Source: Pontibacter oryzae
Lineage (GTDB): Bacteria > Bacteroidota > Bacteroidia > Cytophagales > Hymenobacteraceae
Assembly (NCBI RefSeq): GCF_003576375.1
Contig: NZ_QWGE01000005.1
Coordinates: 1-64,000, forward strand
Length of the DNA stretch: 64,000 nt
Direction of reading: 5' to 3'
In this document: positions 34,174 through 34,359 of the stretch, piece after piece
Layout of the letters: each line of letters opens with the position of its first letter
How positions within the stretch are numbered: the stretch's first letter is position 1
Notes under the pieces: model-generated
What the model was told of the DNA's origin: nothing
The model's input: only the letters and a program-made list of their open reading frames with translations
Databases searched by the model: none
Translations under genes and position numbers: made by a program

Positions 34174-34346
34174 AAACAAAAAGAACGGTTATGGCGTGCA
34201 TAACCGTTCTTTTTGCCAAATATGTAAAATTAATTAATTCTTTTCCAGTGCGGGGGCCACTATAATTAAGCTGCCACCAAGTTTAGCATAAGCCTGACTT
34301 TTTGCAATTCAAAGTGCCGGAAGGCTCCTCCCCCACGGCAATCATC
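34174..34346 (-). ncRNA. Candidate structured leader RNA or small RNA upstream of greA
   Basis: A perfect -7 box (TATCTTTG, minus strand 34359-34352) precedes a transcript of about 170 nt. Its 5' part closes with CCGTGGGGG (34338-34330) paired to CCCCCGCACTGG (34256-34245), with a GCC-TTCC-GGC hairpin inside. Its 3' end is a 16-bp terminator at 34178-34214 with a T-rich tail. greA begins 32 bases later. It could be a free small RNA (6S-like size) or an attenuated greA leader. It lacks the SRP loop motif and any tmRNA-like reading frame. Confidence 0.55.
34178..34214 (-). terminator. Strong intrinsic terminator just upstream of greA
   Basis: A perfect 16-bp stem, AAAAAGAACGGTTATG / CATAACCGTTCTTTTT, with a 5-base loop, followed in the minus direction by GTTTTTGTG. 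It would end transcripts from the upstream RNA promoter or the GNAT operon and gate entry into greA. Confidence 0.85.
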
Positions 34347-34351
34347 TAAGG

Positions 34352-34359
34352 CAAAGATA
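34352..34359 (-). promoter_or_regulatory. -7 box of the RNA upstream of greA
   Basis: TATCTTTG, a perfect TAnnTTTG, with an AT-rich stretch upstream and only a weak -33 (TTAAC). It is the last promoter-like element before greA. Confidence 0.65.

Follow-up and report, generated by a model that had tools for sequence, protein, structure and literature searches.

Why should greA, the gene for the factor that rescues stalled RNA polymerase, be preceded by a promoter box and then by a transcription terminator? The question is raised by a 64,000-nucleotide stretch of the Pontibacter oryzae genome (contig NZ_QWGE01000005.1, positions 1 to 64,000; hereafter the window), whose minus strand carries, in this order, two genes (serA-like and GNAT), the box TATCTTTG, a leader about 175 nt long that ends in a hairpin and a U-rich tail, greA, and a gene for a HIT-domain protein. 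Pontibacter is used here for the genus as drawn by GTDB; NCBI places it in the family Hymenobacteraceae, order Cytophagales, phylum Bacteroidota. A preliminary description of the locus had suggested an attenuation of greA like that by the GraL leader of Escherichia coli. This idea now has the support of anatomy and comparison. We conclude that the 5′ leader of greA probably carries a transcription attenuator, and that GreA itself is its most likely regulator.

The gene behind the leader had been named correctly as greA, as protein family models confirm (Table 1). The promoter box TATCTTTG reported earlier is also present, and about 130 nt separate it from the terminator in the window. Folding gives the terminator a stem of 19 bp, in which the two outer pairs are G-U and which is followed by a U-rich tail; the terminator that the preliminary description saw before greA is real, but it stands 28 nt from the ATG and is longer than described (16 bp and 32 bases had been given). 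At the sequence level the layout is that of GraL, in which the greA leader contains an intrinsic terminator with a promoter ahead of it on the same strand, and the finder that we used also returns a leader terminator for greA of E. coli K-12.

A genus search matched the leader in 50 of 50 Pontibacter genomes, and another comparison matched it in 37 of 37 same-genus genomes versus 0 of 22 genomes from other genera of the order. The leader adjoins greA in all 42 Pontibacter loci that we read. When 37 Pontibacter leaders are aligned, the sequence from box to terminator varies strongly, whereas the terminator, the U-rich tail and the greA untranslated region (UTR) are almost constant. Outside the genus, a hairpin with the core AGAACGG...CCGTTCT precedes greA in five further genera of the family, and members of other families in the order have it too, mostly 20–50 nt from the ATG. 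Judged from this distribution, the terminator is older than the Pontibacter-specific 5′ domain that lies before it.

Loci outside the genus were chosen by us so that many families are represented. From 148 genomes we took 50 loci of other families in the order and nine of the family, from 80 genomes 36 more of the family, and from 198 genomes 40 from beyond the order. One locus (L118) was retained despite a weak greA alignment score, and in another (L119) the hairpin is visible by eye but fails the T-run rule. Under a strict rule, which asks for a terminator no more than 150 nt from greA, 44 of the 45 loci from other genera of the family and 39 of the 50 from other families of the order have one, as do, with differing stems, 14/20 from the rest of the class and 15/20 from the rest of the phylum. 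The same rule is satisfied by 1.5–3.5% of shuffles of these regions and by 23 of 220 other genes in genomes of the order, two of these 23 having a box ahead of the hairpin. A laxer rule, applied without a shuffle control, raises the counts to 45/45, 48/50, 15/20 and 16/20, respectively.

The stem itself has a signature. An ACGG/CCGT core is present in 44 of 45 family leaders and 32 of 50 order leaders, compared with two of 194 control terminators from genomes of the order. We considered whether AGAACGG/CCGTTCT is merely a common terminator stem; the core is rare among terminators in the order, but such hairpins do exist elsewhere. The core was found in none of the 40 greA leaders from outside the order. 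A covariance model of the hairpin was used to search 148 genomes, of which 117 gave a match and 88 are listed. Among the matches listed, the best genome-wide match falls just before greA in 61 of 88 genomes and, with the genomes that built the model excluded, in 32 of 57, some of these being close relatives of the genomes used. In the genome of the window, the greA hairpin reaches 42.9 bits and the next other place 36.2.

Terminator stems of the greA leaders from outside Cytophagales (L216–L255) differ between families and look alike within some; in family f24, for example, several members have AACGCYT/RRGCGTT, and families f31 and f57 have CGCCGCAGCC/GGCCGTGGCG. Separately, an exact-pattern scan of genome contigs for the AGAACGG/CCGTTCT hairpin returned 56 stretches. 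A pattern search of the 16 from other genera that were inspected placed greA within 250 nt of none of them (there was one false flag, L109), and most end in a T run. Six stretches from Clostridia-type genomes (L068, L074, L076, L102, L107 and L109) hold near-identical AGAACGG...CCGTTCT hairpins beside what by eye appear to be tRNA genes, several of them on the downstream side, and these are seemingly ordinary terminators.

To which transcript does the hairpin belong? Read on the greA strand, the non-Watson-Crick pairs around the core of 87 distinct hairpins comprise 74 G-U, 13 A-C and 48 other mismatches, and at the first inner pair there are 33 cases of U-G and one of C-A. As G-U pairs far exceed A-C pairs on this strand, an RNA hairpin in the greA transcript fits better than a DNA palindrome. 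One alignment of the hairpin (A3) contains 40 of 51 hairpins; its rows were picked by ACGG...CCGT, so the core is invariant by construction and the pair counts test only the surrounding pairs. These counts bear on the proposal that the conserved stem is a site for some protein other than GreA with RNA polymerase, bound as DNA palindrome or as RNA hairpin, which represses or protects greA. Such sequence conservation in a stem core is unusual for a terminator and would suit a binding site, but the excess of G-U pairs speaks against the palindrome and the loops vary. An RNA-binding protein might still fit; as a whole, we regard this proposal as very improbable.

The hairpin could also be the ordinary terminator of the serA-like and GNAT genes, with greA served by a promoter of its own behind it that escaped detection. 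Both genes are indeed co-directional with greA in the window, and by a simple open reading frame (ORF) rule the upstream ORF seems co-directional in 24 of 48 order leaders and 39 of 45 family leaders. Yet the promoter box sits between the GNAT gene and the hairpin, and the hairpin stays in place where the upstream gene is divergent. Ten of the 25 loci that the rule called divergent were tested, and Pfam supports the call in five, whose upstream products are UPF0004 proteins (L135 and L143), a formyl transferase (L168), a glycosyl transferase (L239) and an Fe-S protein (L242); in those lineages the divergent direction means that the terminator is not that of the upstream gene. Nor does any TAnnTTTG, the only promoter type scanned for, lie between hairpin and ATG in the 93 order leaders with a hairpin (93/93, Pontibacter excluded). 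The preliminary description had noted the same lack in the window, and this holds. Together, these points leave a terminator of the upstream genes distinctly improbable.

The box TATCTTTG is called a −7 box for its fit to TAnnTTTG, the Bacteroidota promoter consensus. The window contains 52 instances of TAnnTTTG compared with a shuffle mean of 56, so the box counts only through its conservation. As to conservation, every Pontibacter locus examined (42/42) has a TAnnTTTG box 132–158 nt upstream of the terminator core. Elsewhere the arrangement is often more compact: 29 of 48 order leaders and 20 of 45 family leaders have TAnnTTTG no more than 60 nt ahead of the hairpin, and others have, by eye, a degenerate version. 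Pontibacter may retain a trace of the compact form. When the leader of the window is aligned with six leaders from sister genera, its TACATATTTGG, directly before the hairpin, falls on the promoter box of L176 and L177; TACATA is mostly retained across the 37 aligned Pontibacter leaders, and CATATTTG is one mismatch away from TAnnTTTG. TACATATTTGG is perhaps a decayed second promoter. It would have decayed once a promoter about 150 nt further upstream had taken over, an event that would have placed a new segment of RNA before the terminator. A greA gene with two overlapping promoters is known from E. coli, according to an earlier study (PMC6829880).

The new segment has structure of its own. 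The whole leader folds with a z-score of −2.7 and its 5′ part alone with 0.16, no more stable than shuffles; the score of the leader stems from the terminator, and therefore only comparison reveals structure in the 5′ part. Alignments A1 and A2 take in 21 and 13 of the 42 Pontibacter leaders, the remainder being too diverged to align. Across 13 alignable leaders, changes on both sides occur in seven of the ten pairs of hairpin I and in three of the 11 pairs of hairpin III, where 77% of cells are paired. Cells changed on both sides number 25, as against 11.4 in shuffles (0 of 500 shuffles reach 25) and at most nine with slid partners, although these controls are imperfect, for the rows are related by descent and a single row of the alignment supplied the structure, which favours that structure. 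The 5′ fold that this comparison supports is a hairpin with a pentaloop, a second hairpin predicted by folding only, a third hairpin and then the terminator. The loops of hairpin I are purine-rich on changing stems (AGGAG, AGTAG, AGTTG, GGATG and similar ones in L021–L057, L116 and L212–L215). A stem with such a pentaloop occurs in 33 of 42 leaders compared with 2% of shuffles, the pattern having been written after the loops were seen and the shuffles being mononucleotide ones.

A leader peptide was considered for this segment and is unlikely: ATG frames of at least eight codons are present in 32 of 42 leaders, ten have none, and by eye the frames are unconserved over the genus. Close relatives of the window do have an ATG in hairpin II from which short frames run; these start with MLN and vary in length and sequence.

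With its own promoter box and terminator, its covarying hairpins I and III, its recurrent pentaloop and its steady distance from box to hairpin, the leader could instead be made chiefly as a small RNA of about 175 nt that acts in trans and just happens to lie in front of greA, readthrough into the gene being incidental. GraL, too, has been described as acting in trans (PMC6829880). What makes this unlikely is that the 5′ domain diverges beyond alignment within a single genus while the terminator and the greA UTR remain unchanged, and that in five further genera of the family the terminator still stands at greA, a promoter-like box being close before it. The 5′ domain is best read as a fast-evolving, Pontibacter-specific extension of a putative greA attenuator.

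A more particular identity would be the 6S RNA of this lineage; the preliminary description had spoken of a free small RNA of 6S-like size. 6S RNA has a long closing stem around a central bubble. A length of about 175 nt would suit it, and the place is vacant in the sense that under strict filters the Rfam models RF00013 and RF01685 give no 6S RNA above their cut-offs in any of 59 relatives (0/59 each; RF00013 has no match at all and RF01685 two weak matches, not at greA). The 6S models have no match at this leader either, however, and the proposed GC-rich closing stem (34330–34338 with 34245–34256) is not conserved. Its letters are complementary in the window itself, but 56% of cells pair in 13 aligned relatives compared with 58% in shuffles, so a closing stem of the 6S type is rejected; the inner hairpin proposed with it does show up in the predicted fold. 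Since the other genera of the family that we read are also without the 5′ domain, we give a 6S RNA hardly any credence. The Rfam scan of the window put two tRNAs above threshold and nothing at the greA leader, in agreement with the earlier statement that signal recognition particle (SRP) RNA and tmRNA do not fit. The best-scoring Rfam match to the leader is L20_leader (RF00558), a likeness driven by a terminator hairpin with a U tail; it reaches 28.5 bits against a gathering score of 58.7, and the gene here is greA rather than L20.

The E. coli greA leader, GraL, was reportedly described by Potrykus in 2010. A later study (PMC6829880) states that GreA represses greA through GraL in cis and must be catalytically active to do so, that about two thirds of E. 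coli transcripts end in the greA leader, and that swapping the arms of the GraL terminator, with pairing and termination kept, largely abolished the response to GreA. The conserved arms of the Pontibacter terminator fit the finding that arm sequence matters beyond pairing. Both systems share the succession of promoter, short leader, intrinsic terminator and greA, the behaviour of the Pontibacter leader being predicted from its sequence. The details differ: the K-12 stem is GCTGACCTGGG/CCCGGGTCGGT, 102 nt before greA, and has by eye no visible sequence in common with AGAACGG/CCGTTCT; 19 nt lie before the terminator in E. coli (PMC6829880) compared with about 130 in Pontibacter; and a motif in GreA reads GDLKE in E. 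coli and GDLSE in the protein encoded in the window. The leader is most likely a GraL-like attenuator, with no evidence of sequence shared with GraL. Premature terminators recur before greA-family genes also in the leaders collected by Naville and Gautheret in 2010 (PMC2965389).

We infer termination, partial readthrough, use of the promoter, control by GreA and any role of the 5′ domain from features observed directly, namely the anatomy of the locus, its conservation, the pairing on the greA strand and the lack of TAnnTTTG downstream of the hairpin. RNA polymerase would start at the promoter marked by TATCTTTG (P1) and make about 175 nt; at the conserved hairpin and U tract many complexes would release a short RNA, and the remainder would read through into greA and the HIT gene. 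GreA would act on polymerase paused or backtracked at the U tract, so that more GreA would give more termination, as reported for GraL. The HIT gene is probably co-transcribed with greA, since only 3 nt separate them, and both would then be on the attenuated transcript. Many other members of the order would make an RNA just some 45 nt long, from a unit of promoter, a few nt and hairpin. Pontibacter has a three-hairpin domain of about 130 nt inserted there, which probably goes back to the takeover by a promoter further upstream.

Table 1. Features of the greA locus in the window, in order of transcription
Feature	Position	Strand	Basis or remark
P1 promoter, −7 box TATCTTTG	34359-34352	(-)	Fits TAnnTTTG; box found in 42/42 Pontibacter loci examined
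Hairpin I, variable stem, pentaloop AGGAG at 34329-34325	34340-34315	(-)	Fold and paired changes in 13 sequences
Hairpin II, loop around UUAU	34300-34279	(-)	Fold only
Hairpin III, GGYGGC...GCCRCC type	34278-34252	(-)	Paired changes in 13 sequences; diverged members carry other stems
TACATATTTGG, possible relic of a second promoter, next to the terminator	34226-34216	(-)	Suggested by alignment with sister genera
Intrinsic terminator hairpin, stem core AGAACGG...CCGTTCT	34217-34175	(-)	Fold, alignments, covariance model
U-rich tail (several U runs) and 5′ UTR of greA, conserved	34181-34150	(-)	Alignment of 37 Pontibacter leaders
greA, transcription elongation factor GreA	34146-33673	(-)	TIGR01462, NF001263, two Pfam domains
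HIT-domain protein gene	33669-33271	(-)	Starts 3 nt after greA

Several observations weigh against attenuation by GreA. The strict rule finds no terminator in 11/50 order, 6/20 class and 5/20 phylum leaders, and two leaders (L157 and L171) have none even under the laxer rule; among 16 leaders from elsewhere in the phylum, one has a TAnnTTTG box behind the hairpin. Part of the G-U excess at the outer pairs comes from the U tract. Among the matches listed, 27 of 88 genomes hold a similar hairpin elsewhere that outscores any at greA; with the core rare in control terminators, it is strongly enriched before greA and not exclusive to it. In E. coli, attempts to reproduce the effect in vitro did not succeed, and a further factor is suspected to take part (PMC6829880). 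Clear antiterminators, finally, have been shown in greA and rnk leaders (PMC2965389), whereas folding of the 42 Pontibacter leaders revealed no conserved one: the terminator hairpin forms with a mean probability of 1.0, and once its 3′ arm is taken away the 5′ arm finds upstream partners with a mean of 0.32. This makes a factor acting on paused polymerase seem likelier than refolding, and control by such a factor would not require an antiterminator.

None of the open-access (PMC) papers among the search results listed is a report of a greA leader from Bacteroidota. In word searches, greA was absent from PMC10994844, and words starting with Bacteroid, Cytophag or Flavobacter were absent from PMC2965389; greA is likewise missing from the main text of PMC9723704, whose table of 64 structured leaders lay outside this check.

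A wider and quite tentative proposal, which we consider rather doubtful, is that GreA attenuation at promoter-proximal terminators is an old control layer of Bacteroidota, in which clade-specific stems would be read by sequence and pairing, and that Pontibacter has upgraded it with a new domain that senses a signal or makes the RNA a dual cis- and trans-acting one. Self-control by GreA is unsolved even in E. coli, where the effect is seen in cells and not in a defined system (PMC6829880). The same layout with a different, clade-conserved stem and a naturally long version amounts to a natural experiment, in which the shared features would point to what the mechanism needs. These observations also suggest looking for greA attenuation across Bacteroidota.
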